Below, piece after piece: positions 1,057-41,651 of a DNA stretch of 64,000 nucleotides (within the stretch, counting starts at the first letter, position 1; each line of letters opens with the position of its first letter). Under the pieces are notes generated by a model. It saw only the letters and a program-made list of their open reading frames with translations. It searched no databases and was not told where the DNA came from. The DNA comes from Thiotrichaceae bacterium. GTDB lineage: Bacteria; Pseudomonadota; Gammaproteobacteria; Beggiatoales; Beggiatoaceae. The stretch spans positions 1-64,000 of the forward strand of contig JAABRD010000020.1 of NCBI GenBank assembly GCA_011391085.1, read 5' to 3'. The position numbers were made by a program, and so were the translations under genes.

Positions 1057-1089
1057 AGAAACTAAGTTTCTTTAAGAAACTTAGTTTCT
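1057..1089. repeat. GAAACTAAGTTTC double palindrome
   Basis: AGAAACTAAGTTTC, a short spacer CTTTAA, then GAAACTTAGTTTCT. The whole is palindromic and each half is itself nearly palindromic. It lies between two minus-strand genes. Near-identical copies occur many times in the window (for example 24411, 55208, 55252, 61828), so it is a repeat family rather than a site for one gene. It could act as a bidirectional terminator but has no clean T-run. Confidence 0.85.
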
Positions 1090-1100
1090 GTAATATCGCC

Positions 1101-2258: not shown

Positions 2259-2274
2259 TCAATGACCTCCTGCC

Positions 2275-3273
2275 TTATGAATTTTTCTCGACGGATTTGA
2301 CTTGCCCCGTACTGGATACGGCCGTGATAGCCAACTGTTGCGCTTGTTTGGAGACAGATTGGAGTTGTTCACTCAATTGCGCAATTTGCACTTTCTGTTG
2401 TTCAATGGTCTTGGTTAGAGACTCGATTTTCAACTCAAACGCTTTGCGTTTGGCTTCCATCTCTTTTTCCATCAACTTCGCCTTGGTTTCCTCCTCCTTG
2501 TAGGTTTCCTTGATAGCCTCCTCACGGGCCTTCTTCATGGCCTCGTCAATTTCCTTGGGCATCGTGTCGACCTTGACCTTATACTCGTCAAACTGCGTTT
2601 GATGTTTGGCCAAATAACTCTCCCGTTCGCCCCAATTTTTCTCCTTCTGCTGCTGTTCTTCGGACAGTTCACGTTCTAGGACACGTTTACGTTTTTCGTA
2701 TTCATCGGCGGCTTCAGTACGTTGCCGTTGGAGTTTATACGCATACTCATCCTCTTCAGACTGACGAGTTTTGCCTTGCACCACCTGTTGCTTGGCCTTC
2801 GCCTGTTCATTCTCCTGTTGCTGTTTGGCCCAAACCTCCCGCTGTTTGGCCATTTCTTTTTCGATGGCTTCCTGCTTTTGTCGATAATCCTCTTCCAACG
2901 TGTGCAACGTCTTCTGATGTTCTTGTTCCAAAATATTTAGCGTTTCTGCCGCAATGGAAATATTTTGCAAGGACTCTAAACGTTGCGTTTCGACCAGAAT
3001 AGCACGTTGCATTTGTGCTAACTTATCAACCTCGATGGTCATCGTTTTGGACAATTCCTGAACGGATTGACCAAAGGCAGATTGCAATTTTGCCAGGGAT
3101 TGAAAGATACTCTCAGCGGTATAGGTAGCGGCCTGTTTCACCAACTCTTTATCTGTTTGGCGGGCGGCTAAGAGTTCTTTCGTAGCAATTTGCGCTTCCA
3201 CACGTTTATGGTCCGCGCGGAGCTTCTCAAAAGCCCTTAAAATGGTTTGTGGGTCTGTATGAGGTGTGTTCAT
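2275..3273 (-). CDS. coiled-coil protein, tandem paralogue
   Basis: A 332-residue predicted cytoplasmic protein dominated by coiled coil from about residue 110 to 315, rich in Glu, Gln, Lys and Ala. It lacks the Pro/Ala linker of its downstream paralogue. I placed the start at ATG 3273 (protein begins MNTPHTDPQ) because GGAGG lies about 12 bases upstream; the open frame extends further to 3339 but only through repeat-like DNA. The stop is 16 bases before the downstream start and the two genes probably form an operon. I do not recognise a functional domain. Confidence 0.75.
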   Translation of the reverse strand: MNTPHTDPQTILRAFEKLRADHKRVEAQIATKELLAARQTDKELVKQAATYTAESIFQSLAKLQSAFGQSVQELSKTMTIEVDKLAQMQRAILVETQRLESLQNISIAAETLNILEQEHQKTLHTLEEDYRQKQEAIEKEMAKQREVWAKQQQENEQAKAKQQVVQGKTRQSEEDEYAYKLQRQRTEAADEYEKRKRVLERELSEEQQQKEKNWGERESYLAKHQTQFDEYKVKVDTMPKEIDEAMKKAREEAIKETYKEEETKAKLMEKEMEAKRKAFELKIESLTKTIEQQKVQIAQLSEQLQSVSKQAQQLAITAVSSTGQVKSVEKNS

Positions 3274-3311
3274 GTGATTGAGTTTCCTCCTAAAATTGGA
3301 TTTTTCTGATT

Positions 3312-3436
3312 CGTACCAACGGAATAAATTCCGTACCAACGGAATAAATTCCGTACTCCAAAACCGACGGAATTCAGTGTTGGAGTACGGAATTCATTCC
3401 GCCTGAAACGGAATAAATTCCGTACTCCAAAACCGC
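3312..3436. repeat. GGAATAAATTCC short repeat cluster
   Basis: The word ACGGAATAAATTCCGTAC occurs three times, with an inverted form GTACGGAATTCATTCCG and a spacer CTCCAAAACCG repeated twice. The cluster lies between thiC and the coiled-coil gene, where it could fold into alternative hairpins. It gives no coding signal. Confidence 0.75.
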
Positions 3437-3448
3437 ACTTGTACAACA

Positions 3449-5260
<1,812 letters not shown>

Positions 5261-27416: not shown

Positions 27417-28382
27417 ATGAAACACACTATCTATTTATTCTCCCTGCTATTTACCGCCAGCATTGCCCAGGCGGCTCCCCCTAACCTTGCCTCCACAGAT
27501 GCCCATACCTACTTCAATCAAGTTCGGCAAAAAATGGGCATGATGGAGTTTTTTCCACATTGGCAGTCAGAAACGGTGGGGACTGCCGATTCCTCTTTGC
27601 TTGATCCATTTGTCAACACGAACTGGGAATTTAGGATTTCCTATTCTGATAAGTGTGAGGATTTTCCGGTTTCCACTTACCTGTTTGATACTTCCACCAT
27701 GACCTTGGAGGATGGCACGATAGGATTAGCGGCCACTGATGATGCTGAGGGAAAATGGATATTGTGGTATGAAGGCACTGAATCCTTTTATGTTCTGGCA
27801 ACCAATGCAGATAATGGAGGCATACTTATGTATTCGTTCAACTGCGATACGCCCGCCTGCGATAGTACCATCTCAGGTGTGTTTGAAACGCTTTACCCTG
27901 ATGATAGCGTCTCAGAACCACGGCAATTTACGGGTTATCGCCACACACTATCTCCTCTTGGCAAAGCGAATAATGCTGACACGTTTTTTAGAGGTGGTAT
28001 TGCCATCAATGGCGGAGAATATCAAACGCAAATCATGCAAAGTCTGCATGACAATGTCGACATTCTCGGTGAAATGATTGTGGATTGCAAGCATGTCGGT
28101 CAAGAAGCGGATATTTTTATCTATGCAGAAACGACTTTGCCTCCTTTAGAAGGAGTTTTTTACTTCATGTTGGATGAAGGTAAAACCATTCTCCCATGGG
28201 ACCAAAACCCAGCTAATTTGGTGGCGTTGATCCCTGCGATAAGATTAAACCAACTGGAGACAGTCCCCCTGTATCAAGGAACGTTCTATTATCATGGAAC
28301 GTTGAAAGTCCATTTTGGCTATCGTCTAACAGATGGAACCGTCGTGACGAGTGGAGAACCGATTGAGATTGCGATAAACTAG
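27417..28382 (+). CDS. secreted protein, family member 1 (shares C-terminal domain with the CAP protein)
   Basis: 321 residues with a signal peptide (1-19, ending AQA before APPN). Residues 25-45 (DAHTYFNQVRQKMGMMEF) resemble the first helix of a CAP domain, but the rest of that domain is absent and a different segment with a Cys pair (NCDTPACDS) follows. The C-terminal 130 residues (GGIAINGGEYQTQIMQSL to KVHFGYRLTDGT) match those of the genes at 28668 and 30039. Function unknown; probably periplasmic or extracellular. It is divergent from grxD. Confidence 0.8.
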   Translation: MKHTIYLFSLLFTASIAQAAPPNLASTDAHTYFNQVRQKMGMMEFFPHWQSETVGTADSSLLDPFVNTNWEFRISYSDKCEDFPVSTYLFDTSTMTLEDGTIGLAATDDAEGKWILWYEGTESFYVLATNADNGGILMYSFNCDTPACDSTISGVFETLYPDDSVSEPRQFTGYRHTLSPLGKANNADTFFRGGIAINGGEYQTQIMQSLHDNVDILGEMIVDCKHVGQEADIFIYAETTLPPLEGVFYFMLDEGKTILPWDQNPANLVALIPAIRLNQLETVPLYQGTFYYHGTLKVHFGYRLTDGTVVTSGEPIEIAIN

Positions 28383-28522
28383 GTACCAGTGCATGACGAA
28401 CCTGGTATTTCAGGTGGACTGAATACGCTTGGTTTAATCCACCCTATCAATGGAACTGTGATTGATGTGATGTGTACGAGAAAAAGAATGAAGGGAATGA
28501 AGTGTATCAGCCCCATCGGCTG

Positions 28523-28561
28523 TCTTTCCACTTGTTGCTTGATTTTTTCTAAAATGTCCAT
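28523..28561 (-). pseudogene. 13-codon remnant of a duplicated grxD start
   Basis: The minus strand reads MDILEKIKQQVER, the grxD N-terminus, then diverges. The adjoining 107 bases up to the start at 28668 match the grxD/27417 intergenic region almost exactly. It marks the left edge of a 1.25-kb tandem duplication. Confidence 0.9.
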
Positions 28562-28667
28562 AGATTCAAATATACTAAACTTGTAAAATTGCTGAATATC
28601 ATCTACACTGATATACTATCAACTTTCCAATTCATTGTCCATTACTTAATTCTTTCTGATAATCACT

Positions 28668-29720
28668 ATGAAACACACTATCTATTTATTCTCCCTGCTA
28701 TTTACCGCCGGCGTTGCCCAGGCGGCCCCCCCTAACCTTGTTTCCACAGATGCCCATGCCTACTTCAATCAAGTTCGGCAACAGGTAGGCATGATGAAGT
28801 TTTCTCCACATTGGCAATCAGAAACGATGGCGACTGCCGATCCCTCTTTAATCGAACCATTTATCGATACTCTCTGGGAATTTGCAATTTCCTATTCTGA
28901 TGAGGATGGTGATTTTCTAATTTCCTATTATGTGTTTGACACCTCCACCATGACCTTGGAGGATGGCACGATAGGATTAGTGGCCACTGACGATACTGGT
29001 GGGATGTGGATATTGTTGTATGAAGATACTGAATCCTCTTATGTTCTGGCAACCAACGCAGGCAACGAGGACATCTTTACGTATTCCTTCAACTGCGATA
29101 CGCCTACTTGCGACAGCACCGTGACAGGTGTATTTGAAACGCTTTACAGTGATGGTCGCATTTCAGAACCACTGGAATTTACAGGCCAGCGTAGCGTCGA
29201 TGTCGATACGGGCGACAACTCAGACTTCGTGGAGACTCCCTCCTCAGACGAGTTGCCTCAACTTGGCGACACCATTGCCACTGATACCACAGGCAAGGTG
29301 ATGTGGAATCAGGCCTTATTTTCAGGCGGTATCGCCATCAATGGCGGAAAGGAGTATCAGACGCAGATGATACAAAGTTTGTATGACGAAGTTGATATTC
29401 AAGGCGAAATGATTGTGGACCCTAACCATGTCGGTCAAGAAGCAGATATTTTCGTCTATGCAGAAACGACCTTGCCACCTTTGGAGGAAGTCTTTTACTT
29501 CATGTTGGACGAAGGACTCAAGGCCATTCTCCCATGGGACCAAAACCCAGTCAATTTGGTGGCGTTTATCCCCGGTGTGAGACTAAACGCCCTAGAAACG
29601 GTGACAATGTATCAGGGAACGTTCTATTATCCTGGGACGTTGAAAGTCCATTTTGGTTATCGTCTGACAGATGGCACCGTCGTGACGAGTGGAGAACCGA
29701 TTGATATTGCGATAAACTAA
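28668..29720 (+). CDS. secreted protein, family member 2 (tandem duplicate)
   Basis: 350 residues, closely similar to member 1 over the whole length, with the same signal peptide and upstream region. It has an insertion of about 28 residues (around DVDTGDNSDFVETPSSDELP) before the shared C-terminal domain. Several Cys and the NCDTPTCDS pair are kept. The two copies differ at many positions, so the duplication is not recent. Confidence 0.8.
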   Translation: MKHTIYLFSLLFTAGVAQAAPPNLVSTDAHAYFNQVRQQVGMMKFSPHWQSETMATADPSLIEPFIDTLWEFAISYSDEDGDFLISYYVFDTSTMTLEDGTIGLVATDDTGGMWILLYEDTESSYVLATNAGNEDIFTYSFNCDTPTCDSTVTGVFETLYSDGRISEPLEFTGQRSVDVDTGDNSDFVETPSSDELPQLGDTIATDTTGKVMWNQALFSGGIAINGGKEYQTQMIQSLYDEVDIQGEMIVDPNHVGQEADIFVYAETTLPPLEEVFYFMLDEGLKAILPWDQNPVNLVAFIPGVRLNALETVTMYQGTFYYPGTLKVHFGYRLTDGTVVTSGEPIDIAIN

Positions 29721-29742
29721 GTGAACGTCGGTTGACACTCCT

Positions 29743-29779
29743 CAAACCTGACAGGTCGTAAAGCACCTGTCAGGTTTAA
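29743..29779 (+). terminator. AAACCTGACAGGT hairpin
   Basis: AAACCTGACAGGT pairs with ACCTGTCAGGTTT, 22 bases after the stop at 29720. The same hairpin is used at 20606 and 20778 inside mobile elements, so it is a repeat; a terminator role is inferred. Confidence 0.5.
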
Positions 29780-29795
29780 CCCACTTGATTATTTT

Positions 29796-29960
29796 GGTAG
29801 TGATGCAATGTGGGTTCTCTGTCTGAACTCTGATTAGAATGATTTTCAGATGGACTCTGATTAGTCAAGCCTCCTTTCATAGCCCTCATTTAATCATTTC
29901 AATCAGAGTTCAAGACCTAAGAGAAACCGCACGATATTTCACCCAGATTGCATCACTACC
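29796..29960. mobile_element. GGTAGTGATGCAAT-family element carrying the 100-bp repeat
   Basis: Ends GGTAGTGATGCAATGTGGG and CCCAGATTGCATCACTACC. The perfect 8-bp duplication ATTATTTT flanks it (29788-29795 and 29961-29968). The interior (29824-29914) is an inverted, diverged copy of the 100-bp repeat found at 1-236. Confidence 0.92.
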
Positions 29961-30038
29961 ATTATTTTTACCTAATGTATCACTACCCAAACTTACCTCA
30001 CTTTCATCTATATTACACACATCTCATCCCTCACAATT

Positions 30039-31805
30039 ATGAAACGTACTCTCTTTTTCTCCAGTTTAATATTAACCACCAGCATCGCCCAGTCTGGCAC
30101 CTATGATCCAACAGATTTAACTCAAGCCTATACCTACTTAAACCAAGTGAGGTTAGCCGCTGGGATGACTGAATTTAGCAAGAATCCGCTACTTGAAAAA
30201 TCTGCCTCCAATCACGCTAATTATTTGGCCGACAATGCCACTGAAGGACATTTTGAAACCGCAGGCAAACTGGGCTTTACGGGTGTCGAACCCAAGGATC
30301 GCACCAAACATGCAGGTTATCCCAGTTTATCGGTGTCAGAAAACGTGTCCACGGGGAACCCCAATAGCACCGATTCCATTGACGGTCTCATGGGCGCCAT
30401 TTACCATCGGATTGGTTTCCTGGATTTCGTCAACAATGAAGTCGGGATTGGCATTGCCCACGTTTCCAATCCTGAAGAACACACCGCCTACGTCTATAAT
30501 CTGGGCAATTCCAAATACGGTGCCCTTTGCGCAGGTCCTTCTTTCGAGGACGAAGGGTCTTATTATTATGATGTTTGCGAACCCAACATCAATATTGATG
30601 CCGTTGCTTTTGACGAAGTGACCCGACAAGCCCAAGGCAACAATCCGACCGTCGTTCTATGGCCGACTGAAGGTGATAAACAAGTACCTCCAGCGTTTTT
30701 TGAAGAATCGCCGGACCCGCTACCTGATTATTCAGTCTCCGGTTATCCCATTTCCATTCAATTTAATCCTCTCAGTTTCAAGGCTGTCAAAGTCAGCGAT
30801 TTCAAATTATATCGTGACCCAGACAGTTCTGAAATCAAATCCACCAGACAGTTAAACAAGAAGACGGATCCCAATGAGAAACTCACCGCCCTGGAGTTTG
30901 TTCTCTTTCCACTAGAACGACTGGATTGGAACACCGCTTACCGAGTGGAAGCCAAATATACGGATGATGCCGGTAAAGAAAACACCTTGACTTGGCATTT
31001 TCAAACCCGAGGCGCTGGTGCCCCGCTGTTCACAGTCACCGGGAAGGGGGAGGAATTATCAGTGCCACTGACGGCAAAGTTTGCCATCTATGTGCCACCT
31101 ACCAAACAATCTGCGGAGATAGGTTCACTTAACTTCTCCTTTAGTTCTGGGATGAAAATCGACACGAACTTTATTGACGCTAATACCTTTCTGATAGATT
31201 TATCTGGCAAAGAAGGTCAAACCGCGGAGTTTAAATTTTCCGAAGGCCGTAGCTTCAAAGTCACCCTGAAAACGGACGCCACCTTGCCTACCGACACAAG
31301 TGAGACCCCGTCGACGCCTGTAACTCCAGTACCTGCCACGTTGCCTACCTTGACGGATCCGTATGCAGTGAATGGCAAAGGGAAATCGGTCAAAACAAAA
31401 ACGCAGTTTGCAGGCGGTATTGCAGTGAATGGTAGCGAGTATCAAAAACAAGTGGTCCAAATGCTATCTGATCCAGTCGAAGTGAAGGGAGAAATCAAGG
31501 TGGATTCTGCCAATGTAGGTAAAAAAGCAGACCTGTTTGTGTATGCCGAAACTTCGTTACCACCTGATCTGGAAGTGTACTACTTCATGTTGGGAGAAGG
31601 TGGCGAATTATCTTTATGGGACCAACAATCTGCTAACCTCGTTCCATTTCAAAAGGAAGTTAAACTTGGAAAGACGCAAACAGTGACGATGTACCAGGGG
31701 ACATTTGCTTATCCAGGGACGTTAAAAGTCCATTTTGGTTACCGTCTAACAGATGGGACGATGGTGAGTCATAAGGAAGCGATTGAGATTACGATAAATA
31801 GGTAA
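30039..31805 (+). CDS. secreted CAP (SCP/PR-1) domain protein
   Basis: 588 residues with a signal peptide (1-18). Residues about 25-175 are a CAP domain: AYTYLNQVRLAAGMTEF, LEKSASNHANYLADN, SENVSTGNPNSTDSIDGLMG and VGIGIAHV, with His, Glu and His in the usual cavity positions. About 215-335 is an Ig-like segment, often found next to CAP. The last 130 residues are the domain shared with the two genes upstream (KVHFGYRLTDGT). CAP proteins are extracellular with varied roles. No operon link is evident. Confidence 0.85.
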   Translation: MKRTLFFSSLILTTSIAQSGTYDPTDLTQAYTYLNQVRLAAGMTEFSKNPLLEKSASNHANYLADNATEGHFETAGKLGFTGVEPKDRTKHAGYPSLSVSENVSTGNPNSTDSIDGLMGAIYHRIGFLDFVNNEVGIGIAHVSNPEEHTAYVYNLGNSKYGALCAGPSFEDEGSYYYDVCEPNINIDAVAFDEVTRQAQGNNPTVVLWPTEGDKQVPPAFFEESPDPLPDYSVSGYPISIQFNPLSFKAVKVSDFKLYRDPDSSEIKSTRQLNKKTDPNEKLTALEFVLFPLERLDWNTAYRVEAKYTDDAGKENTLTWHFQTRGAGAPLFTVTGKGEELSVPLTAKFAIYVPPTKQSAEIGSLNFSFSSGMKIDTNFIDANTFLIDLSGKEGQTAEFKFSEGRSFKVTLKTDATLPTDTSETPSTPVTPVPATLPTLTDPYAVNGKGKSVKTKTQFAGGIAVNGSEYQKQVVQMLSDPVEVKGEIKVDSANVGKKADLFVYAETSLPPDLEVYYFMLGEGGELSLWDQQSANLVPFQKEVKLGKTQTVTMYQGTFAYPGTLKVHFGYRLTDGTMVSHKEAIEITINR

Positions 31806-32179: not shown

Positions 32180-32320
32180 TATAGTAATATTCATCTAAAT
32201 TGGTACTTTATCCACTGGAGTGCAATAAGAATTATTGCCCCCTGCGTTGCGCAGCAACGGCGCAATAATTCTTATTGCGCTCCAGAGGAAATGGTACAGG
32301 TTTGAATGAATATCACTATA
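32180..32320. mobile_element. TATAGT-ended MITE, complete copy
   Basis: Ends TATAGTAATATTCATC and TGAATGAATATCACTATA, hairpin CTGGAGTGCAATAAGAATT with its inverse. 141 bp. Confidence 0.9.
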
Positions 32321-32335
32321 AATTTTCGAATCAAA

Positions 32336-32534
32336 AATTTGGGAGATGTGGTGGTGGTTCTTCCAAACTCCACAAAATTTGTCCACAAATGCCTGCGGTT
32401 CCTGATAAGTCGGTTTCGGCAACTGAATCTTCACTAAGAGGGTCTTGATCACCCTGGATAAAAATCTTGTCAAATGGAGTGGCGGGAGTTGGTAGATGAA
32501 GACGGTGGGCAAAGAAAAACTTGCCCTCTACCAT
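32336..32534 (-). pseudogene. decayed copy of a small antitoxin-like gene
   Basis: Split over two frames: MVEGKFFFAHRLHLPTPATP in one, and LLVKIQLPKPTYQEPQAFVD then VWKNHHHISQIFDSK in the other. The second part matches the intact small gene at 33554-33712 (ILVKIQLPK, VWKND, SQIF). Frameshifted and without a partner. Confidence 0.55.
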
Positions 32535-32552: not shown

Positions 32553-33020
32553 TTAGGTATGCTTCTTTGCCACAGGATAGATCTCATGTCTTGGGTCCCA
32601 CCATAAAATTTTGAAAATATGACGTTCACGAATACCCCAAAGGCGTTCCCTTCCTGACAAGCGCAACGAAAAAAGTTCTTCTTCCACGCCAATGAGTTTT
32701 ATTTGAGTCAGACGTTTTTGGGCCTCATTACCTAATTCCTTGAGTTTAATAGGATGGCAACCGGTATTGGGGTGGTTGATTTCGGCCCAAGTCATGGTTT
32801 CAAATTGGGCTAGTTTGCCATGAATATATTTCAAGGTGTCGGCGTCCAAATTATCCCATCCCCAAGGACCTCCAAAATCCAGAAGATAAACTTGCCAAGA
32901 GAGTTTTTCATGGTCACTATTGGGGTTCTGCAAATTCCGAGAAAACTTATACGGAACGGTTTGTTCAAATTTCGATGCAGTACGTGGTTGTTTATTTTTT
33001 TTGGTATTTGGTTTGCCCAT
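32553..33020 (-). CDS. putative toxin partner of the Panacea antitoxin
   Basis: 155 residues. A basic, low-complexity start (GKPNTKKNKQPRTASKF) is followed by a globular part ending LRLSGRERLWGIRERHIFKI then LWWDPRHEIYPVAKKHT. The tail with a conserved-looking WWDPxH and terminal KKHT is typical of a family I have met only as hypothetical proteins. It starts seven bases after the Panacea gene on the same strand, so it is the natural toxin candidate. A ribonuclease fold related to RelE is possible but not shown. Confidence 0.7.
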   Translation of the reverse strand: MGKPNTKKNKQPRTASKFEQTVPYKFSRNLQNPNSDHEKLSWQVYLLDFGGPWGWDNLDADTLKYIHGKLAQFETMTWAEINHPNTGCHPIKLKELGNEAQKRLTQIKLIGVEEELFSLRLSGRERLWGIRERHIFKILWWDPRHEIYPVAKKHT

Positions 33021-33027
33021 AAACGCG

Positions 33028-33495
33028 CTATGGTTCTATATCGAACCCCTCATTGTAAGCCCCTTCATAATAAGAAGCCAGAGACGCCAACTGGATTTCT
33101 TGTCCGCCTCCGTTAATCACCGATCCTTTACGCGCTTCCAGCCATGGTTTTTCCATCACAATCAAGTCACGAAGCCATTGCGCGGATTTATTGCCGTAAT
33201 AGCGTAGCACTGTTTGAACCGTTTCTGTTTGAGTGTCACTCAGTGCGTCAGGATTTCCAAGGGTTGGAATATCCTCTAAGTTCATCTCGTATTTTCCAGG
33301 ATAAGCGTCATGCAACTCCTTTATAATCGGGCCATTTGGCCAGGCTTCAATGGGTTGTTCAAAGAGTGGTTTTTCATCCCAAACCAGTGACCAGGCTTGG
33401 CAATAATACAGTAATTTATGTAACCTTGGAGTCGGTAACGGATGTTTTTGGGATACCATGAAGGCTGCAATATCGAAAACGTTTTTGGTTGCCAT
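33028..33495 (-). CDS. Panacea (SocA-like) domain antitoxin
   Basis: 155 residues with the Panacea signature: PRLHKLLYYCQAWSLVWDE (about residues 22-40), then PIEAWPNGPIIKELHDAY. Panacea proteins neutralise very diverse toxins encoded next to them. The start is ATG 33495 with AGGA upstream. It is the first gene of a two-gene unit with 32553-33020. Confidence 0.88.
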   Translation of the reverse strand: MATKNVFDIAAFMVSQKHPLPTPRLHKLLYYCQAWSLVWDEKPLFEQPIEAWPNGPIIKELHDAYPGKYEMNLEDIPTLGNPDALSDTQTETVQTVLRYYGNKSAQWLRDLIVMEKPWLEARKGSVINGGGQEIQLASLASYYEGAYNEGFDIEP

Positions 33496-33823: not shown

Positions 33824-33985
33824 GGTAGTGATGCAATGTGGGTGATATTCATGTTGCCCTCACCCCCGGCCCCACGCCCGTAGGCGTGGGGAGAAAACCA
33901 CTGGTGCCGCCATACTCCCCACGCCCGTAGGGAGAGGGGCCGGGGGTGAGGGCAACATGAATATCACCCACATTGCATCACTACC
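33824..33985. mobile_element. GGTAGTGATGCAAT-family MITE
   Basis: Ends GGTAGTGATGCAATGTGGG and CCCACATTGCATCACTACC around a long C/G-rich hairpin. The flanks CACTAATT (33816-33823) and CACAAATT (33986-33993) are an 8-bp duplication with one difference. Confidence 0.9.
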
Positions 33986-34063
33986 CACAAATTTATCGTT
34001 TCCCACTCAGTTGCAGTTTTTGGGAAAAAGAGGATTTGCCAGCCCCAAACGAAAGGGATGTCG

Positions 34064-34119
34064 AATGGCCAACTATTCTCGTCATTGGGTGACGAAAAGA
34101 GAGAAAAACGTTGGCCATT
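34064..34119 (-). terminator. AATGGCCAAC hairpin after the ATPase operon
   Basis: AATGGCCAAC...TTCTC pairs with GAGAAAAACGTTGGCCATT, with an inner hairpin CGTCATTGGGTGACG. It is about 13 bases past the stop of the last operon gene. Terminator role inferred. Confidence 0.45.
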
Positions 34120-34131
34120 TTCTAATCAGTC

Positions 34132-35226
34132 CTATAAAAGAAAACTTTCATATTTACGGTCCAAGAGTTTTGAGAAATTCGCATAAATTTGGAACTTCCT
34201 TAATCTGGCCACCGCGTCCTCACGTTCTCTATCTGTGTAACCTTCTAAGGCACCCTGATAAATTGACAAAGGAAAAATATTGAGAGGCAGAATGGGATGT
34301 CCATCATTCTTAGCAAGTCGTCGAGTCGCACGGTCCAGGACATCGACAAATAATGGATAATCATCATCATACCGGCTTTCGCCAAGGACCCACGTATGTG
34401 CCTCCCATAATGCTTGCATCCACTTCTTGAAACTAACCGGATCCCCAACGGGCAACTTCTCCAAGTCTGCTAATTTGGCGATGGTATAGTCTGGTTGCCC
34501 CATTATGCTAACAAATATTCTCTCCAATATACCTTTAGGTTCAGGACGGGCGAATAATAAACCGACTGGGGTGTAAGTATGCACAATCGAACCTACTCCA
34601 CGGTTATTAAATAGATTTTCGATATTGCTGGCTGTATTTACCATTATGTTATTTTCTGGCCATTCTTTTCTTATAAACTTAGACAGTTGCCTATAGACCC
34701 ATAAAAACCAAATAGTCATCATATCCTTCGTGATATCCGTGTCACGGTATTTTTTATAACTATCATGGTTGCTATCTGCCGAGAAAATATTACAGAAGTG
34801 GTAATTTGTATCAATAATTACAGATTGCAAAGGTGGAATCTTCAGTTGTTTTGCAATCCGGTCCGCATCATTTCTAATTGTACAGAGTAACGCACTCAAA
34901 TAGTTGTATTCATAAAGTGCAAAGGGATTGGATGGCCGACCCACGCCAAAATAACAAGTATCCTCGTATCTATCAAAAGAATAAGTGCGTTGCAACATTA
35001 TTTTTCTGTCTTTGTCCCCCTCAAACCCTTTCAAAGGATAGTAGATAGGTTCATCAACCTTCTTATTATAAAGGAGTATTGCAGAAGTGTCTGTATTGAC
35101 AACGTTCAAATCTAACACCAGGATTCCTTCCGCCGGCTTCCTCTCCAGTTGATGTCCCAACAATAGTAAAGTCAGCAGAGTTTTACCCACTCCGCCTTTG
35201 CTACCTGTTATGATATGCCATTGCAT
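34132..35226 (-). CDS. ParA/MinD-like P-loop ATPase
   Basis: 364 residues beginning MQWHIITGSKGGVGKTLLT: a deviant Walker A with both Lys (K10, K15), which marks the ParA/MinD/SIMIBI class. The switch region VLDLNVVNTDTS follows. The C-terminal half has no match I recognise. ParA-class ATPases position plasmids, proteins or membrane complexes by dimerising on ATP. Last gene of the six-gene operon, 12 bases after the AAA-TPR gene. No ParB partner is present, so plasmid partition is unlikely. Confidence 0.82.
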   Translation of the reverse strand: MQWHIITGSKGGVGKTLLTLLLLGHQLERKPAEGILVLDLNVVNTDTSAILLYNKKVDEPIYYPLKGFEGDKDRKIMLQRTYSFDRYEDTCYFGVGRPSNPFALYEYNYLSALLCTIRNDADRIAKQLKIPPLQSVIIDTNYHFCNIFSADSNHDSYKKYRDTDITKDMMTIWFLWVYRQLSKFIRKEWPENNIMVNTASNIENLFNNRGVGSIVHTYTPVGLLFARPEPKGILERIFVSIMGQPDYTIAKLADLEKLPVGDPVSFKKWMQALWEAHTWVLGESRYDDDYPLFVDVLDRATRRLAKNDGHPILPLNIFPLSIYQGALEGYTDREREDAVARLRKFQIYANFSKLLDRKYESFLL

Positions 35227-35238
35227 AGTTGTCTTTCC

Positions 35239-36909
35239 TTAATATTTTTCAGGAGGCTTCCTGTTGAGTCGGATTAATGTTAAAAATGCCAGCAATATTT
35301 TCAATGGTTTCGAATTCCAAAAACACTGGTTCTTAGTTTCACGTACTTTGTCTTTCAATCCCGCCTGCCGATAAGCATTGATTGCACTCTTGCAATCATC
35401 GTCTCGCAATGCCCTTCCCGCACGACGTTTCCAAATCTCTCCAATTTCCCTTTTAGCCCCTGCATGTTTATCATCAAATTGGAGTATTTCTTCATAAAAA
35501 CTCAGTTGTTCACCTTCCTTTTTAGATTGTTGCGCCATCGACCATAGCGTTTGAACAAGCAAAGGGCGGGCTTCGTCTGGATGGTCATCAAACAAATTTT
35601 TCAATTTTCTACGGGATTCTGGCAACTTTCCTCGTTCTAACAAAATCTTTGCTTGCAATTTAACTGTATTTATATGGTTAGGATTCAGTCTTAACACACG
35701 ACTCAATTCCTCCAGTGCCTCCTCCAGTTTGTTCTCCGTGCGTAATTTGAGGGCCAATTCATAATAACTGTTGGCTTCTGGTTCCAGACGATTCAATTCA
35801 TCTTTAACCAAATGAAGAGGTTTATATTTGGCCACTAACAGACGCAGTAATTCAACTTTAATGCCGTATCCATTTCTCTCCTCTTTAATCACATCCCAAC
35901 CATTTGTTTCCAACGACTGAGGGGCATTTTCTAAGGCTGGTACGGAAATTTTTATACCAATTTTAGATAAGGAGGCGTTCAATTGAACTTTAGTCACAAT
36001 CTTGTTGTCCTCCCCTGCCATTGCTGAAATAAACACCTTTTGTGCCGATTCCAGACCACCCCATAGCCATTCTAACATAGCTTCACTACGTTCCAACACA
36101 GTAGGAATGACCGCATCGATATGTTTAGGAGAGACGCTGGGAATTTTTGCGACACCTTGCCTATAAAGATGATCCCATACACAAGAACATACTTGTTGAG
36201 TCAAAAAAGGATGTCCCAGCGTTAACTGCCAAACTTTTTCTTCTGCTTTGGTTGACCATTGCAAGGTATTATTATCTTTAGACAGACGAATTAATTTCAG
36301 GGTGTCTTCCCGATTTAGCAAAGAAACTGGCTTAGTGGGAATCCCTTTAAATAAGGCCAAGGCAATCTGCGTCAAATCACTCACGTTACGTCCAATGGCA
36401 AATACAAAATCTAACTTTTCTCGATTGATAGCCAATAAATCATGCAAATAGCGAAAAAGTTCGGCCCTGGTTTGTTTAGTTAAAGCATCATCTAACGCAT
36501 CAAATTCGTCAAATAGTAAAACAAAAGTCTTCTCCTCTGTTTGGAGTAAATTTGGCAACCAAGTTTCATAAAAATAACTTTTAGGGTCTGGTCCGAGTTG
36601 AGGTTTTCCCTGACTTAATTTATCACTGATATGGTTGGCCAACTCTTGCACAATCTGCGGGATAGATTGATGGGCTTTACCAAGCAAATCAAAGAAAATC
36701 GGGCAATAGTTTCCCTTGGTAGGTAACTTAGCTTCCAATTCTCGCAAGATAGACGTTTTGCCAATCCGACGTTGACCATGCAATAAAATGGCATTGTGCT
36801 GGGGATGTTGTAAAATACGATAGACTTCCTGCAAAATATCATCTCGTCCCACAAACGCAGGACTCCCACCCACGGCATTGCCTACTAAGTAAGGATTCAT
36901 TGGTTGCAT
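35239..36909 (-). CDS. AAA/STAND-type ATPase with C-terminal TPR repeats
   Basis: 556 residues. N-terminal NPYLVGNAVGGSPAFVGRDD is typical of AAA-like signalling ATPases. Walker A is GQRRIGKTS (K51) and Walker B VLLFDEFD (about 130-137). A winged-helix region follows (about 290-365). Residues 380-530 form TPR-like helices (SYYELALKLRTENKLEEALE). A short hydrophobic, basic tail ends the protein. The start is 36909 (AAGGA nine bases upstream) or 36900, where ATG overlaps the previous stop in ATGA. Likely a regulated oligomerising switch; target unknown. Confidence 0.82.
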   Translation of the reverse strand: MQPMNPYLVGNAVGGSPAFVGRDDILQEVYRILQHPQHNAILLHGQRRIGKTSILRELEAKLPTKGNYCPIFFDLLGKAHQSIPQIVQELANHISDKLSQGKPQLGPDPKSYFYETWLPNLLQTEEKTFVLLFDEFDALDDALTKQTRAELFRYLHDLLAINREKLDFVFAIGRNVSDLTQIALALFKGIPTKPVSLLNREDTLKLIRLSKDNNTLQWSTKAEEKVWQLTLGHPFLTQQVCSCVWDHLYRQGVAKIPSVSPKHIDAVIPTVLERSEAMLEWLWGGLESAQKVFISAMAGEDNKIVTKVQLNASLSKIGIKISVPALENAPQSLETNGWDVIKEERNGYGIKVELLRLLVAKYKPLHLVKDELNRLEPEANSYYELALKLRTENKLEEALEELSRVLRLNPNHINTVKLQAKILLERGKLPESRRKLKNLFDDHPDEARPLLVQTLWSMAQQSKKEGEQLSFYEEILQFDDKHAGAKREIGEIWKRRAGRALRDDDCKSAINAYRQAGLKDKVRETKNQCFWNSKPLKILLAFLTLIRLNRKPPEKY

Positions 36910-38051
36910 AGTTCTGGTTCCTTCTCATCAATAAAATCCACCGACATTGGAGGAGAGACTTGCCACTTATCATTAGCGTCTTTTTTCAAGAGACCTTGTT
37001 TTTCAAGCAATTCAATCCAGGTGGGGGTGGCAGGTTGTTCTCCTCTCTTCAATGCCACGAGAGTTTGATAAACTTTGGTATTCAGGTTGACCAGTGTATT
37101 TGCTACTATGGCTGGCAACTCTTGTTCGACCGCTTTTTTGATCGTCTCCCAAGGTTGAACCTCCTGATGTTCCTTGGCTTTTTGCAATGCTTCAGCCACT
37201 AGACGAATGAAATGCGGATGTTGGCCCGCTGTTTCCCTAATAAATTGACACTCTACTTGAGAAAAGCCATTTTTTTGAAGCAATTCATCTATTTTGGCAT
37301 CTAAAAGTAAACCTAGCACAATTTCATAGCTGTCCATAAAATTGAAGTAGGGTGAACCTTTAGGATTCAAGTGTTTAGTTTGGTCATGAAACTGTTTCAG
37401 AGACAGATTTCCTGAAATAATCAAACTCAGTGGGCTGGGAGTGCGAGACGCTGCTAGTCTTCTTAACAAGGCAAAAAACTCTGGTTGCTTCAAGTTAGAA
37501 TTGTTTAACAATTCGTCGAATCTATGCAACATGAGAACTAATCGCCATTCCTCTTGTTTCACCTGTACCATCAGTTTATCCAGGGAATACTCGTCAAACT
37601 GGTTCTGTTGACAGGTTTGATAACTTTCAAGTAAAGTTTGGCTTTGATTACATTTGTCTTCTAATGGCTTTAAAGCACGTTGCCAAAATTGGGCAGGTTG
37701 ACAATCTTTTGGCAACATAGAAATGTCCACTAACGAAAATACCAGTTTGTCAGCATATTCCTCATAAAGTGTTTGACTGTGATCGGGGTCAATCAAATAA
37801 CCTAAAATGGCGGTTCTCTCCTGTTCAAACACGCCCACAATCGCACCAGATTGACCTGTCAAAATGAGTCTCTTCAGTTGGTCGATTTCTCTGCCGCGGC
37901 CCAGGAGAGGAGTAAGATGCAGTGGGAAAGCTGGGGTACTCTTTCGGTTTTGACGCGGTGAAGAAGGAGTAATTACCTTTATAAATATGACAAGGAATGT
38001 TAATAGCGCGAGATTAACAATCCATCCTAAGAGGGTTCCTATTTCTATCAT
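36897..38051 (-). CDS. membrane-anchored NTPase-like protein with degenerate P-loop (copy B)
   Basis: 384 residues. One N-terminal membrane helix (residues 6-26), a Pro/Ser linker, then LTPLLGRGREIDQLKRLI as in STAND ATPases. The place of Walker A reads GVFEQERTA (about 73-81), lacking the GK; Walker B is altered to LVLMLHRFDELL. The C-terminus is helical, with a winged-helix-like end. It is a paralogue of 38643-39785. It probably binds or senses rather than hydrolyses nucleotide. Its stop overlaps the next start. Confidence 0.75.
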   Translation of the reverse strand: MIEIGTLLGWIVNLALLTFLVIFIKVITPSSPRQNRKSTPAFPLHLTPLLGRGREIDQLKRLILTGQSGAIVGVFEQERTAILGYLIDPDHSQTLYEEYADKLVFSLVDISMLPKDCQPAQFWQRALKPLEDKCNQSQTLLESYQTCQQNQFDEYSLDKLMVQVKQEEWRLVLMLHRFDELLNNSNLKQPEFFALLRRLAASRTPSPLSLIISGNLSLKQFHDQTKHLNPKGSPYFNFMDSYEIVLGLLLDAKIDELLQKNGFSQVECQFIRETAGQHPHFIRLVAEALQKAKEHQEVQPWETIKKAVEQELPAIVANTLVNLNTKVYQTLVALKRGEQPATPTWIELLEKQGLLKKDANDKWQVSPPMSVDFIDEKEPELCNQ

Positions 38052-38074
38052 GATTTAGCGGTTCTCAGATGTTA

Positions 38075-38587
38075 TTATGTTTGGTTATTCAACGGAATCG
38101 ATGAGGAGGGCTTTTCCTCTTTATCTTTCTCATTTCTATGTTTCTCCCCCCATGAGGTCTGCTTAACAAAGGCGGCATAGACAGCCACAAGCACGAAAAG
38201 GATTATCTCCGCGATTATTGTAGATGTATCGATATGTTCTTTTACCGCTTGACATCTCAAGTAGAAGATTAAACAAAACACTATTAATAGCATTGGAGAA
38301 ATATGGATAAAAAGTCCCCTAGTAAATTCCGAAATGCCTTCTCCCAAAGCTGCCGAAAAATCCTTCTCAAATAAGAAGTTGTCTATCACCAACGAGGACG
38401 TAATAACCATTGAAAACAGCACTATGTCTCCTTCGGAAAAAAATTTCCAAAGAGTATAGTCAAAAAACGGCATCACCATTTTAGCAAACATTGGAATAAA
38501 TAGGGCCCAGACACACGTCAACCCAAACCAATAATAGCCATCCTGATACCTTTTGATTTTTGAAAAAAAGTTATTTGGTTCGTTCAT
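38075..38587 (-). CDS. four-helix membrane protein (copy B)
   Basis: 170 residues with about four membrane segments: YYWFGLTCVWALFIPMFA, DIVLFSMVITSSLVI, FIHISPMLLIVFCLIFYL and IIAEIILFVLVAVYAAFV. It ends in a charged tail. A paralogue of 39852-40346 (shared ALFIP, VLFSMVI, LVIDNFLFEKDF, YAAFVKxTSWxxK). I do not recognise the family. It is always followed here by a membrane-anchored NTPase-like gene, so the pair likely works together. Confidence 0.75.
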   Translation of the reverse strand: MNEPNNFFSKIKRYQDGYYWFGLTCVWALFIPMFAKMVMPFFDYTLWKFFSEGDIVLFSMVITSSLVIDNFLFEKDFSAALGEGISEFTRGLFIHISPMLLIVFCLIFYLRCQAVKEHIDTSTIIAEIILFVLVAVYAAFVKQTSWGEKHRNEKDKEEKPSSSIPLNNQT

Positions 38588-38642
38588 GATTCGTGTTCTC
38601 CACTGGTTATCTTGTTACACTGAAATGACAGCCTGCAATGAT

Positions 38643-39785
38643 TCAACAGTTGCACAATTCTTGTTCCGTCCTGTTGTTAATAAAATCCACCAATACCCGT
38701 GGAGAAACTTGCCATTGACCATCACGGTCTTTCACCAAAAAGCCTTGTCTTTCCAATAGCGATAATTCGTCATTGGATAATTCAGGTACTTTACCTTCTT
38801 TGACCAACGAGACCAACGCTTTGCAAACTTTGGGAGACCATGCGTGGATAACATTAGCCAATATATTTGCTACCCCATCAGAAAAGTCCTTTCTGGCACT
38901 CTCCAATGGTTCCTTTTCATTACGTCCCTTAGTGGCTTGCAACGCTGAGATTGCCGGTTGAATAAGATAAGAGTGTCTGCCTGTGAGTTCTTTAAGGAAG
39001 CGACACTCTTCCTCTGAAAAATCTTTATTTAGCAGGTTGTCTATTTCAGCGTCAGACAATGTCTTTAACACTACCTCTCCCATAAAGTTGAAATAGGGAG
39101 AACCTCCATTAAAGTTCTTGGTCTTTTCATGGAACTCATTTAAGGAAAGTCCCCATGACACAATCAAACATAGAGAACTTGGCGAACGCGAAGAGGCCAG
39201 CTTTCTCAGGGTGGCAAAAAATTCAGAGTTTTCTTTAAAATTGGGAAAACGTAAGAACTCATCAAATCGGTCTAACATCAAGACCAACGTCCCACCTTCT
39301 TGTTTCAATTGTACCATCAATTTGTCCAGACTATATTCGTTAAATTTGTTTTGTGAACAAGATTGATAGAGATTCAGCAAAGTTGGACTTTGTGCACCTT
39401 GGTCTTCCAAGGGACGCAATGCACGTTCCCAAAAATTGGCGGGTGAACTGTTTTCGCCTAACATGGAGAGGTCCAGTGAGGAGAAGATCAATTTACTCGC
39501 ATATTCTCCATACAACGCTTGACTGTGACCGGGGTCACTTAGATAACCTAAAATGGTGGTTCTCTCCGGTTCAAACGGGCCCAGAATGGCAGCCGATTGG
39601 CCGGTTAAAATGAGTCCTTTTAGACGGTTAATTTCTTGGTTTCTGCCCAGGAGAGGGGGCGGGGCCAGGGGGGAAGTTGCCTTTCCTTTTTGGTCTTGAG
39701 GAGAAGGAGTAACCAAGTACATGAAATAGAACAAATAGGCTATTAATGCGATGATAAGCAATCCCAAGGAAAGAGTTTCTGCCAT
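38643..39785 (-). CDS. membrane-anchored NTPase-like protein with degenerate P-loop (copy A)
   Basis: 380 residues: an N-terminal membrane helix (residues 7-25), PPPLLGRNQEINRLKGLI, the degenerate P-loop GPFEPERTT (69-77), and Walker B-like LVLMLDRFDEFL (167-178) with intact acidic residues. The C-terminal region matches copy B (GLSLNEFHEKTK, GSPYFNFM, KWQVSP-type ending, ELCN). Copy A keeps a better Walker B than copy B. It is followed by the copy B membrane protein after 55 bases. Confidence 0.75.
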   Translation of the reverse strand: MAETLSLGLLIIALIAYLFYFMYLVTPSPQDQKGKATSPLAPPPLLGRNQEINRLKGLILTGQSAAILGPFEPERTTILGYLSDPGHSQALYGEYASKLIFSSLDLSMLGENSSPANFWERALRPLEDQGAQSPTLLNLYQSCSQNKFNEYSLDKLMVQLKQEGGTLVLMLDRFDEFLRFPNFKENSEFFATLRKLASSRSPSSLCLIVSWGLSLNEFHEKTKNFNGGSPYFNFMGEVVLKTLSDAEIDNLLNKDFSEEECRFLKELTGRHSYLIQPAISALQATKGRNEKEPLESARKDFSDGVANILANVIHAWSPKVCKALVSLVKEGKVPELSNDELSLLERQGFLVKDRDGQWQVSPRVLVDFINNRTEQELCNC

Positions 39786-39836
39786 AACTTTACTGACCTC
39801 GATAATGGTGATTTAAATTTGTGTGCCTAACGGGAA

Positions 39837-40346
39837 TTAAGATAACGGATGGTTTCTCTTTTTTTCCCATGAAGTGTGTTTAACAAAAGCGGCATAGGTA
39901 GCCACCATGACAAATAGGAGTATCTCAGTGGCTATCATAAACCAACCTATGTTTCCATCACTCACCTGACATTTCAAGTAAATGATTAAACAAAACACTA
40001 TCATTAACGGTGGCAGAACATGAATAACAAGTCCCTTAAGAAGGCCTGAAGCGGTTTTTCTGCCAAGAATGGCCGCAAAGTCTTTCTCAAAAAAGAAGTT
40101 ATCTATTACTAATGTGGTGCTAATCACCATTGAAAAAAGCACTATCTCGCCATCTGAAAGAAGATAGTCAAAAAACGAATGTTTTTTCTCAAAGCAACAC
40201 TGAATGACCATCCTTGCGATGATGGGAATAAACAAAGCCCATAAACATGTCAGCAAAAACCAAAGATAACCATCTTTATATAAGATGATATAGTTTTTTG
40301 TTATTGACCACAATTGATAAAAAAAACTATATAGATATTGTTTCAT
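39837..40346 (-). CDS. four-helix membrane protein (copy A), first operon gene
   Basis: About 169 residues from ATG 40346 (MKQYLYSFFYQLW), preceded by GGGGA; a frame start at 40361 is also possible. Four membrane segments as in copy B: GYLWFLLTCLWALFIPIIA, EIVLFSMVISTTLVI, LVIHVLPPLMIVFCLIIYL and IATEILLFVMVATYAAFV. It opens the six-gene minus-strand unit. No promoter is clear; an AGGAGTCC palindrome remnant lies upstream at about 40400-40425. Confidence 0.75.
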   Translation of the reverse strand: MKQYLYSFFYQLWSITKNYIILYKDGYLWFLLTCLWALFIPIIARMVIQCCFEKKHSFFDYLLSDGEIVLFSMVISTTLVIDNFFFEKDFAAILGRKTASGLLKGLVIHVLPPLMIVFCLIIYLKCQVSDGNIGWFMIATEILLFVMVATYAAFVKHTSWEKKRNHPLS

Positions 40347-40430
40347 ACTCATTCCCCACATAAATATTCAAAAGTCCAATGCGCAACTCTGTCTGACAAA
40401 GCTACGCTTTGGACTCCTGGATATTGAACG

Positions 40431-41651
40431 TTATTTAGCCGTAGTAGTTCGTCCCTTTCCTAACAACGGCAAATCTCGATTGAGGAGATAAGGAATCAAC
40501 CGTTCTGGAGGGACATAACCTGGGATTAATTCGCCCGTGGATAACAATAGGGCGGGCGTGCCAGTGACTCCGACCTTCTTGCCCAATTCATATTGCTTAT
40601 CTATCGAATTATCGCACGTCGCGGATTTCACCGCCCGCCCAGCTTTGGCGTCAGTCATTGTTTCTTGCGGGTTTTCCGCACACCAGACGGAGACCATTTT
40701 CTTATAGGTTTCTGAACCTATGCCAGCACGGGGAAAAGCCAGATAACGAACTTTGATGCCAGCCTCATTGAGTTTGCCAACCGCCTCTTGATGGAATTTG
40801 GCGCAGTAGCCACAATCCACATCGGTAAAGACGTTGAGAGTGGCCTTAACATCACCTTTAGGGGCAAAGACCACGAGGTCTTTTTCGTCCAACGTTTTAA
40901 TGGCATCCGCCCGCATTTTATCTCGTTTGTCTTCGGTGATATTTCGTCCGGTCTGGGTGTCTCGCAAGTCCCCCATGAGTAGATAGCGGCCATCGGCGCT
41001 GACATAAACCACTTCCGATTCTATCGCTGCTTCATATACTCCAGGAATAGGGGCTACCGTGATGGAGATTTTTTCTGGCGGTGCTTTGACAATCCGTTTG
41101 AGAGTTTCTTTGACCGTGTTTGGTACCGTGTGCGGAGTTTCTTCGACAGGGGTGCTAGACACATCCTCTTCCATAGTCGTGATGAAGTTGAGTAATTCGG
41201 CCATTTCCTTGGGCGTCATCTTGTTGAGGCTGTTTAGGATTTTTTCCTTGTAGGGATTATCTTCAAGGGGAGTATTCGACACGTCTTCTCCCATAGTGGT
41301 GATGAAATTAAGTAGTTCTGCAACCTCTTTCGCACTCATTTTGCTAAGGGCGTTGAGGGCCTTTTTCTTTTTGGCAGAGGTTTCCTCTTCTGGGGGAGTA
41401 GAGGAAGACGGAGAAGGCGTTGTTTGGGCCGCTGGGTCGGCAACGGTTTTGGTAGCTGGGGATGCAGTTGGGAAGTCTGCTGAGGAAGTCGTCGCACCAG
41501 GTAATGGTTCAGCAGTTGGCGTACTTGGTGGAACCGACGGTGTGGGGGCAACTTGATCTTGGGGGGTTACTTCAGTAGATTCCTCAAGGGCAAACGTGGT
41601 AGTTGCAGTGCAAACTGTCAATAGGACGAGTATGAAAGGATAAATACGCAT
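40431..41651 (-). CDS. DsbC-like disulfide isomerase with a long N-terminal extension
   Basis: 406 residues. Signal peptide 1-21 (ending TFA). Residues 25-95 are Pro/Thr/Ser-rich. Residues 102-180 hold a 40-residue tandem duplication (LSKMSAKEVAELLNFITTM, then LNKMTPKEMAELLNFITTM). About 185-255 is the DsbC dimerisation domain (VVYVSADGRYLLMGDL) and 265-400 the thioredoxin domain with the CGYC active site (280-283) and the cis-Pro in VTGTPALLL. It shuffles disulfides in the periplasm, normally reduced by DsbD. The extension of about 160 residues is unusual for DsbC. Confidence 0.88.
   Translation of the reverse strand: MRIYPFILVLLTVCTATTTFALEESTEVTPQDQVAPTPSVPPSTPTAEPLPGATTSSADFPTASPATKTVADPAAQTTPSPSSSTPPEEETSAKKKKALNALSKMSAKEVAELLNFITTMGEDVSNTPLEDNPYKEKILNSLNKMTPKEMAELLNFITTMEEDVSSTPVEETPHTVPNTVKETLKRIVKAPPEKISITVAPIPGVYEAAIESEVVYVSADGRYLLMGDLRDTQTGRNITEDKRDKMRADAIKTLDEKDLVVFAPKGDVKATLNVFTDVDCGYCAKFHQEAVGKLNEAGIKVRYLAFPRAGIGSETYKKMVSVWCAENPQETMTDAKAGRAVKSATCDNSIDKQYELGKKVGVTGTPALLLSTGELIPGYVPPERLIPYLLNRDLPLLGKGRTTTAK

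Follow-up and report, generated by a model that had tools for sequence, protein, structure and literature searches.

The STAND receptors of bacteria have mostly been treated as cytoplasmic sensors. Among described systems, the nearest idea to the locus reported here is the nSTAND2 two-gene system, in which adjacent genes encode two STAND ATPases, one with eroded NTP-binding motifs; a ring composed of both was suggested (Kaur et al. 2021, PMC8195603). According to the accessible part of a second study (PMC7159879), MoxR-vWA-iSTAND systems of multicellular hosts contain a dead STAND component, with a transmembrane (TM) segment in about 28% of systems; the same part describes the related VMAP systems, reported in Beggiatoa, whose MinD/ParA-like effector domains are predicted inactive, and EACC1 systems, whose link to multicellular hosts is strong. 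Also from multicellular bacteria, the available text of PMC10907252 reports hypervariable conflict systems of the STAND and ternary kinds. We analyzed 64,000 nucleotides from Thiotrichaceae bacterium, related to the giant sulfur bacteria (family Beggiatoaceae; assembly GCA_011391085.1, contig JAABRD010000020.1, positions 1 to 64,000), hereafter the window, which contain a six-gene operon of STAND-type ATPases, small membrane proteins and a ParA/MinD-type ATPase. The likeliest account, which we hold at about even chances, is a membrane-tethered STAND switch with a ParA/MinD-type relay, serving most probably a conflict response triggered by invaders or damage. The six genes, under labels coined in this analysis, were as follows.

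39837..40361, minus strand: TM1, 174-aa membrane protein with four hydrophobic segments (from the open reading frame (ORF) and hydropathy; no Pfam family above cut-off)
38643..39785, minus strand: iS1, 380-aa membrane-anchored STAND ATPase with N-terminal TM segment and eroded Walker A, GPFEPERTT
38075..38587, minus strand: TM2, 170-aa membrane protein with four TM segments, duplicate of TM1 (from the ORF and hydropathy)
36897..38051, minus strand: iS2, 384 aa, N-terminal TM segment, duplicate of iS1, eroded Walker A, GVFEQERTA
35239..36909, minus strand: AAAT, 556-aa AAA ATPase of the STAND type, Walker motifs intact, TPRs at the C-terminus
34132..35226, minus strand: Par, 364-aa ATPase of the ParA/MinD type, divergent, its Walker A of the deviant form SKGGVGKT

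All six ORFs were open, in the transcription order TM1, iS1, TM2, iS2, AAAT, Par, with intergenic spacing of 51, 55, 23, -13 and 12 bases, as an earlier note on this DNA had described. TM segments were called with a simple hydropathy scan, and the sequence permits an alternative start for TM1 at 40346, the coordinate used in that note.

The operon resembles the nSTAND2 two-gene system in its adjacent active and eroded STAND genes, AAAT being intact and iS1 and iS2 eroded. It differs in that the eroded nSTAND2 module bears GT4 or HEPN effectors, whereas iS1 and iS2 bear an N-terminal TM segment and showed no GT4 or HEPN effector domain by Pfam; moreover, the eroded subunit and a 4-TM protein are duplicated together here, in the company of TPRs and a ParA-type ATPase. 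The catalytically dead STAND component is shared with the MoxR-vWA-iSTAND systems as presented in the accessible part of PMC7159879. No MoxR or vWA gene was found among the six genes and the scanned neighbours, and window Par keeps its motif, whereas the MinD/ParA-like domains of the VMAP systems are, in that same part, predicted inactive. No NCBIfam model reached its cut-off on the six proteins, and no PADLOC-DB 2.0.0 model was matched over most of its length by the window proteins: AAAT matched PDC-S27 (E 3.9e-6, positions 4-120 of 474) and partly PDC-S01, TM2 matched Csx26 (E 0.024), and the other four matched none. In the open PMC literature we found no paper describing this gene set.

The first four genes are two copies of one pair, as had been proposed. 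TM1 and TM2 were 57.7% identical over 149 residues (E 3.6e-54), and iS1 and iS2 were 53% identical and stood as sisters (support 100/98) in a tree of 19 proteins, which places the duplication of the TM-iS pair after the divergence of this lineage from the others sampled. The earlier note had set an NTPase-like pair apart from the AAA ATPase with TPRs. All three are STAND-type ATPases, and the separation fell away since the iS and AAAT profiles aligned at E 1.8e-23 over 347 columns (hhalign), placing iS1, iS2 and AAAT in one STAND family. AAAT matched AAA_16 (E 4.1e-10), TPR_2 (E 1.1e-4) and, in Pfam, iSTAND (E 0.025); its sequence search of the PDB gave TPR proteins alone among the matches listed. 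Pfam gave a match below cut-off to AAA_35 for iS1 (E 2.3e-5) and no informative match for iS2. The nSTAND2 family (PF20702) was matched at E≤0.05 by 5 of 19 iS (best 1.6e-13) and 7 of 15 AAAT proteins (best 1.7e-5), the window AAAT scoring 16.6 bits against a cut-off of 24 and window iS1 and iS2 being unlisted.

The Walker A motif of window AAAT, GQRRIGKTS, was intact, and so were Walker A and B in all 15 aligned AAAT proteins including the window copy, an alignment that leaves out the broken AAAT of other loci. In the 19 aligned iS proteins, GKT of Walker A was kept in 12 and gone in seven, namely window iS1 and iS2 and those of L049, L056, L070, L071 and L080 (loci are numbered with L, other genomes with G, contigs of the source genome with C). 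In iS2, the Walker B aspartate position was read as histidine. The seven eroded proteins formed one clade (support 100/99), and all of them, including iS1, had a hydrophobic N-terminal segment, which was also present in three iS with intact Walker A (L072, L073 and L077). A single early loss within a branch that was membrane-anchored would account for this in a simple way.

The AlphaFold model of iS1 (predicted local distance difference test score, pLDDT, 87.5; 19 sequences in the alignment) matched 19 chains at E≤1e-3 in Foldseek. The archaeal STAND ATPases PABY2304/SSO1545 ranked best (2qen, E 1.6e-7, TM-score 0.55), followed by ORC/Cdc6; further matches were a maltose-regulator entry, plant NRC and Avs3 at E 1e-3. 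VIA aligned the model to 2qen with Z 17.9 over 307 residues at 4.9 Å. These closest solved folds share 10-16% identity with iS1, which adds an N-terminal TM segment. The fold of iS1 is predicted to resemble those of archaeal STAND/ORC ATPases and NLRs. An ORC/Cdc6-like core with helical and winged-helix regions, the mark of STAND proteins, appeared in the alignment of the iS1 model and extends to AAAT by homology; the winged helix of iS1 is a probable one, read from the alignment to 2qen.

Par lay below every Pfam cut-off (CbiA, E 0.0077), and its AlphaFold model (pLDDT 83.7) gave weak Foldseek matches, the best at E 3.2e-3 and none below E 1e-3. By VIA the model aligned to plasmid ParA 5tvk with Z 13.4 over 217 residues at 3.3 Å, and to Soj, MinD, BcsQ, FlhG and Get3 chains with Z 11.3-13; the best 50 matches (Z 13.4 to 11.3) support a ParA/MinD fold and scored too closely for a nearest subfamily to be named. 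The deviant Walker A with its signature lysine was present in 21 of 22 aligned Par proteins including that of the window, with arginine in L062. Par is a divergent ParA/MinD-type ATPase with an intact motif, in line with what had been read from the sequence before. It shares the fold and the deviant Walker A with ParA, MinD, BcsQ, FlhG and Get3, and differs by its own signature IDTNYHF, its scores below the Pfam cut-offs and the partner protein that accompanies it in relatives. In an AAAT::Par fusion at L056, the Par half reads SQNATGKT, its signature lysine gone, and may be dead.

We searched 115 related genomes with iS1 and Par at E≤1e-3. Matches to iS1 were obtained in 14 genomes and to Par in 20, all of them the genome itself or members of its family, and 10 genomes shared both. 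We read 40 regions, then eleven more hit contigs plus L107; iS matches under 100 bits or fragmentary (L170, L171, L173, L174 and L175) and the unlabelled L172 were not counted. L174 is a divergent pair of STAND-type genes. AAAT was the next labelled same-strand gene 3' of iS in 19 of the 23 iS loci, window included, the four exceptions being L074 and L082 (contig ends), L081 (reverse order) and L107 (Par fusion next). Unlabelled genes may separate the two, as two do in L087, and some AAAT were imperfect: short in L055, in two frames in L066 and L075, a fragment in L076 and cut in L169. Par stood in the array of 7 of the 23 loci (window, L049, L062, L063, L066, L107 and, fused to AAAT, L056). 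Recurrence of this kind in relatives, the test that the earlier note had set, supports its proposal of a system. The fullest order was at L062, with iS, a 3-TM protein, AAAT with sensor domain, a 5-TM protein, Par, the partner and an SSF-type gene; L176, which abuts a contig end, comprised AAAT with sensor domain, a 5-TM protein and Par. Distances among iS and among AAAT proteins were correlated over 16 of 18 paired loci (r 0.81, with none of 10,000 permutations as high), and r was 0.57 when L087, L073 and L080 were removed (1 of 10,000); common ancestry also contributes to this correlation. The Par loci numbered 30, made up of 25 plus L107 and L176-L179, with the fragment L069 left out; L176 and L179 belong to the same genome and might represent the two ends of a single locus.

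A partner domain was found directly after Par in 25 of the 28 loci with sequence there, in the next gene in 23, in the same ORF in L064 and after a Par fragment in L179. It was missing from L107, where the next gene is kinase-like, from L178, where the next gene scored 12 bits, and from the window, which alone is geneless at that position. The best six-frame score for a hidden partner 3' of window Par was 5.4 bits (E 2.6), and a single-sequence partner search of the source genome gave nothing (best E 7.1); a profile search of the same genome with the partner N-domain placed it at two Par loci alone, those of C109 and C51. The partner had no match in the PDB. Judged by eye, its C-terminal domain looked probably Roadblock-like, an idea that was dropped: Pfam gave nothing, the PDB profile search nothing below E 0.24, and the comparison with the L078 AAAT C-terminus was non-significant (probability 4.8). 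At the partner site of the window lies the following element.

33824..33985, strand not assigned: 162-bp palindromic high-copy repeat, MITE-like (miniature inverted-repeat transposable element), 3' of Par

Its 56-nt arms are 96% complementary, and it recurs in at least 40 other places of the genome, with about 76-90% identity on the better strand for the 40 of 671 candidates that were scored. It occupies the site where relatives have the partner gene; that it replaced the partner is no more than a guess. The window locus might on these grounds be a decaying remnant, a rearranged copy of a larger system that works no longer: no same-strand gene follows Par, the repeat sits where the partner is expected, and relatives at L063, L066 and L076 are split or fragmentary. 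Against decay stand the six open ORFs, the catalytic motifs kept in AAAT and Par, and the two TM-iS copies, both still open after diverging to 53-58% identity, and we regard it as improbable.

Relatives carry a variety of further modules. The C-terminus of AAAT in L070 matched SBP_bac_3 (E 1.6e-21) and, below cut-off, LysM, in a protein that also has TPR and TM; SPOR was found on AAAT in L071 (E 1.7e-6) and on the second ORF in L075 (E 7.6e-14), and a PD40 match below cut-off on the L087 AAAT. A lineage-specific sensor-like domain, SENS, was found on AAAT in L062, L066, L072, L073, L079 and L176, as a separate gene before Par in L050, L056-L059, L061, L085 and L088, and in pieces in L064. A TM segment was listed for 13 of 19 AAAT proteins, so the C-terminal outer domains are probably periplasmic. 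The window AAAT was not among the 13 and, unlike most relatives, has neither a C-terminal TM segment nor a sensor domain. Par partners also vary, with LysM in L049, a protein kinase in L067, a kinase by NCBIfam in L068, and the kinase-like next gene of L107 just under cut-off (Pkinase, E 2.9e-7). SSF symporters occurred near Par in L049 (E 2e-23) and L107 (E 9.7e-20), with homologues in L060, L062, L066, L067 and L068. The STAND-type gene before Par of L067 matched nSTAND1 at E 2.7e-87 and has a homologue in L068. These two loci, on C109 and C51 of the same genome, share a layout of STAND-type gene, Par, kinase-type partner and, about 2 kb on, an SSF homologue. At L056 (1963-9598), a sensor gene, Par, the partner, iS, a PIN-domain gene and the AAAT::Par fusion follow one another, and at L087 (584-6662) a divergent iS/AAAT pair adjoins two 5'-nucleotidase/metallophosphatase genes, one with LysM. 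A short frame at C140:103555-103869 of the source genome matched the N-terminal part of iS (E 1.4e-33) and is an iS fragment.

Such modules could also be those of envelope homeostasis signalling with no immune role, in which outer domains would read wall state or solutes and Par with kinase-like partners would tune transport or wall synthesis. The SBP3, SPOR and LysM-type domains and the symporters near Par speak for this, whereas the caspase-like::Par and TIR::Par fusions described below speak against it, and the window has no outer domain and no symporter recognized among the scanned neighbours. We think this explanation unlikely, if by no means far-fetched. The same architectures bring FimV/HubP to mind. 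In the available part of PMC12918733, FimV/HubP have periplasmic LysM, a TM segment and cytoplasmic TPRs, and clients including FlhG, and the L070 AAAT is alike in combining a LysM-type domain (below cut-off), TM and TPR in one protein. A membrane STAND complex acting as a spatial organiser would position the ParA/MinD-type ATPase and its cargo, which agrees with the TPR, TM and LysM/SPOR architecture of relatives and with those features and clients. AAAT, however, is a STAND ATPase, and that part of the article names none for FimV/HubP; the window AAAT has TPRs only, lacking TM and LysM, and no cargo gene was recognized at the locus, so that such a role appears highly improbable.

Two fusions link Par to domains of the cell-death type. 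In Thiomargarita sp. SulCav_PC08_66 (L107), an iS with intact Walker A is followed by one small gene and a 680-aa Par fusion. Residues 285-674 of the fusion are Par (222.6 bits), and the first 270 residues matched the NCBIfam model caspase_w_EACC1 at E 8.5e-16; EACC1-associated caspases (NF047832) are the nearest model for this domain, which falls below its cut-off. By tblastn the domain matched a plasmid gene annotated 'caspase family protein' (E 8e-8), and its motifs VGHG and DACYSG resemble the caspase-type His and Cys. The whole array at L107 (4749-13787) consists of iS, the small gene, caspase-like::Par, an overlapping kinase-like gene, a 217-aa gene and the SSF symporter. For Thiomargarita nelsonii, the accessible part of PMC4853749 mentions MITEs, 59 metacaspase motifs and a large number of AAA ATPases whose function is unknown. 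The second fusion, from Anaerolineae (L114), joins Par to TIR (TIR_2, E 2.1e-14) and has a divergent TIR-NACHT-HEAT gene as its neighbour, the pair lying at 725-5136. Occurring in two phyla, the two fusions are the best hint of a conflict-type role, and the caspase-like::Par fusion in L107 is the reason why this role was taken into the main explanation. The putative defence role proposed in the earlier note has gained weight through a caspase-like::Par in an iS locus and a TIR::Par beside TIR-NACHT-HEAT; the lack of NCBIfam models at cut-off, the partial PADLOC matches and the absence of phage or plasmid relatives of Par and iS1 and of viral relatives of Par are neutral or adverse to it, and the periplasmic and cell-wall domains of relatives fit envelope sensing as well.

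In a membrane-tethered STAND switch with a ParA/MinD-type relay, iS1 and iS2, anchored by their TM segments and probably ATP-dead, would form a platform at the inner membrane together with the 4-TM proteins. On this platform AAAT would dock as a mixed active/inactive oligomer, modelled on nSTAND2-type pairs, and would be held off until a signal altered the platform; the switched state of AAAT would then engage Par, which would relay the signal onward. A membrane complex around the duplicated pair, as suggested earlier, appears likely in this refined form, the pair being the eroded half of an active/inactive STAND pairing. In relatives, where AAAT often has its own TM segment and an outer domain (SBP3, SPOR, LysM-like or lineage-specific) and Par is accompanied by a partner protein (kinase-like in three cases) or carries a caspase-like or TIR fusion, these would supply input and output. 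The window copy has neither outer domain nor partner, so the duplicated TM-iS units would have to serve as its input, and Par alone, or a partner whose gene lies elsewhere, would provide its output. The sensing of an invader or of envelope damage would lead to a defensive or self-limiting reaction.

Several results weigh against this switch-and-relay explanation. With both the partner and the outer domain missing, the window copy may be on its way to losing its function. Par was absent from the stretch read in 16 of the 23 iS loci, eight of which lie near contig ends (L070, L072-L074, L079, L080, L082 and L169), and neither iS nor AAAT was found at 22 of the 30 Par loci, several of them cut at a contig end (L053, L054, L060, L065 and L177), so Par is no obligate member. 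With GKT retained in 12 of the 19 aligned iS, the 'dead subunit' is limited to one clade. Sequence profiles searched against the PDB gave no ParA entry for Par, where unrelated entries alone appeared, and no STAND entry for iS, just ClpB-type entries at E 0.005; the structure alignments were shallow, with 19 rows for iS1 and 22 for Par, and the TM1/TM2 family has four members in the sampled set. The caspase-like match in L107 reached 58 bits against a curated cut-off of 140, Pfam gave just Peptidase_C13 (E 0.0033) for it, and a PDB sequence search with the domain found no peptidase. The TIR::Par fusion was seen at a single locus, which lies outside the phylum of the window, and its identity to window Par over residues 4-263 is 24%. 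Gene set, homology, predicted folds, motif status, gene order and fusions come from computation; the mixed oligomer, the course of the signal, the part played by the 4-TM proteins and the purpose are inferred, and most of what the explanation says of input and output is drawn from domains that relatives have and the window copy lacks.

A wider reading, tentative and somewhat short of even chances, is that the relatives make up a lineage-specific, membrane-bound NLR-like family in which an active/dead STAND switch would be fitted with interchangeable outer inputs (SBP3, SPOR, LysM-like and unnamed). With the same reserve, the outputs reached through the ParA/MinD-type relay of this family would be of caspase-like, TIR or kinase-like type. 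Predictions open to testing in laboratory hosts follow from the pairing of eroded and active subunits, from the fusions and from the exchange of modules.

The gene set is nearly confined, in the genomes searched, to one family, which going by record names is Beggiatoaceae. Across the class, with up to five candidates scored per genome, Par (E≤1e-5) was found in 3 of 369 genomes, all the genome itself or of its family, and iS (E≤1e-8) in five, two of which were weak outsiders (G207, E 4e-13, and G211, E 3e-11) which we regarded as STAND proteins of the ordinary kind. Among 346 genomes from the class to which G408 belongs, G408 alone matched at E≤1e-10. A motif-based Par scan of one genome each for 84,980 species, through which alone cyanobacteria were covered, gave 26 Par loci; as the scan requires conserved motifs, it may miss distant relatives. 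Two of these were from Anaerolineae and 24 from Beggiatoaceae-type or broader-named records (Thiomargarita, Thioploca, Parabeggiatoa, Marithrix, Halobeggiatoa, Beggiatoa, and three under Thiotrichales, Thiotrichaceae or Gammaproteobacteria). At L113, the gene before Par encodes a hydrophobic protein of 174 aa with no Pfam match, a likeness in layout rather than in demonstrated homology.

The locus has a chromosomal setting, with dsbC, yajQ and trmD-type genes nearby, and is flanked upstream by the following gene.

40431..41651, minus strand: DsbC-like gene, slot flank (Thioredoxin_2, E 3.3e-23; DsbC_N, E 1.6e-14)

This gene ends 69 bases before TM1, so transcription of the operon may begin further upstream. 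The fetched stretch contained yajQ at 17 of the best 30 dsbC-like loci, own included. Of the 16 among these 17 that are not the window's own, 14 showed about 1.5 kb 3' of dsbC, and no system genes were present there, which makes it probable that the operon was inserted into a slot of variable content. Par and iS1 had no match in plasmid and phage records, nor Par in viral contigs; a mobile origin of the operon was rejected on the lack of Par and iS1 relatives in plasmid and phage records, a search that did not extend to AAAT and the TM proteins. The ParA/MinD fold of Par also raises the thought of a locus for plasmid or chromosome partition, secretion or a pilus. No ParB, relaxase, secretion or pilus family reached a meaningful score among the genes scanned (parS lay outside the scan), and the chromosomal setting just described does not suit it either; its probability is close to negligible. 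A match to a known partition locus, which the earlier note had named among the results that would refute its proposal, was not obtained, the scanned neighbours including no ParB family.

Toxin-antitoxin genes and nuclease relics had also been placed beside the operon. A SocA/Panacea-type gene is real (33028-33495, minus strand, E 1e-14), and 7 bases after it comes a gene for a 155-aa protein with no Pfam match (32553-33020, minus strand); the two are perhaps a toxin-antitoxin pair. The nuclease relics found no support in the two flanking ORFs tested (32195-32512 and 33957-34283), neither of which had a Pfam match at E≤1e-3. TAACTGA repeats, a Beggiatoaceae feature according to the available part of PMC4679880, numbered 6 in the window against 7.2 expected, with none in the operon. 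Promoter-like sites (28 against 15.4 expected) and terminator-like sites (11 against 8.5) are consensus matches only and were set aside. Elsewhere in the window, at 27417-31805 on the plus strand, three consecutive genes are mutually similar, the third with a CAP domain.

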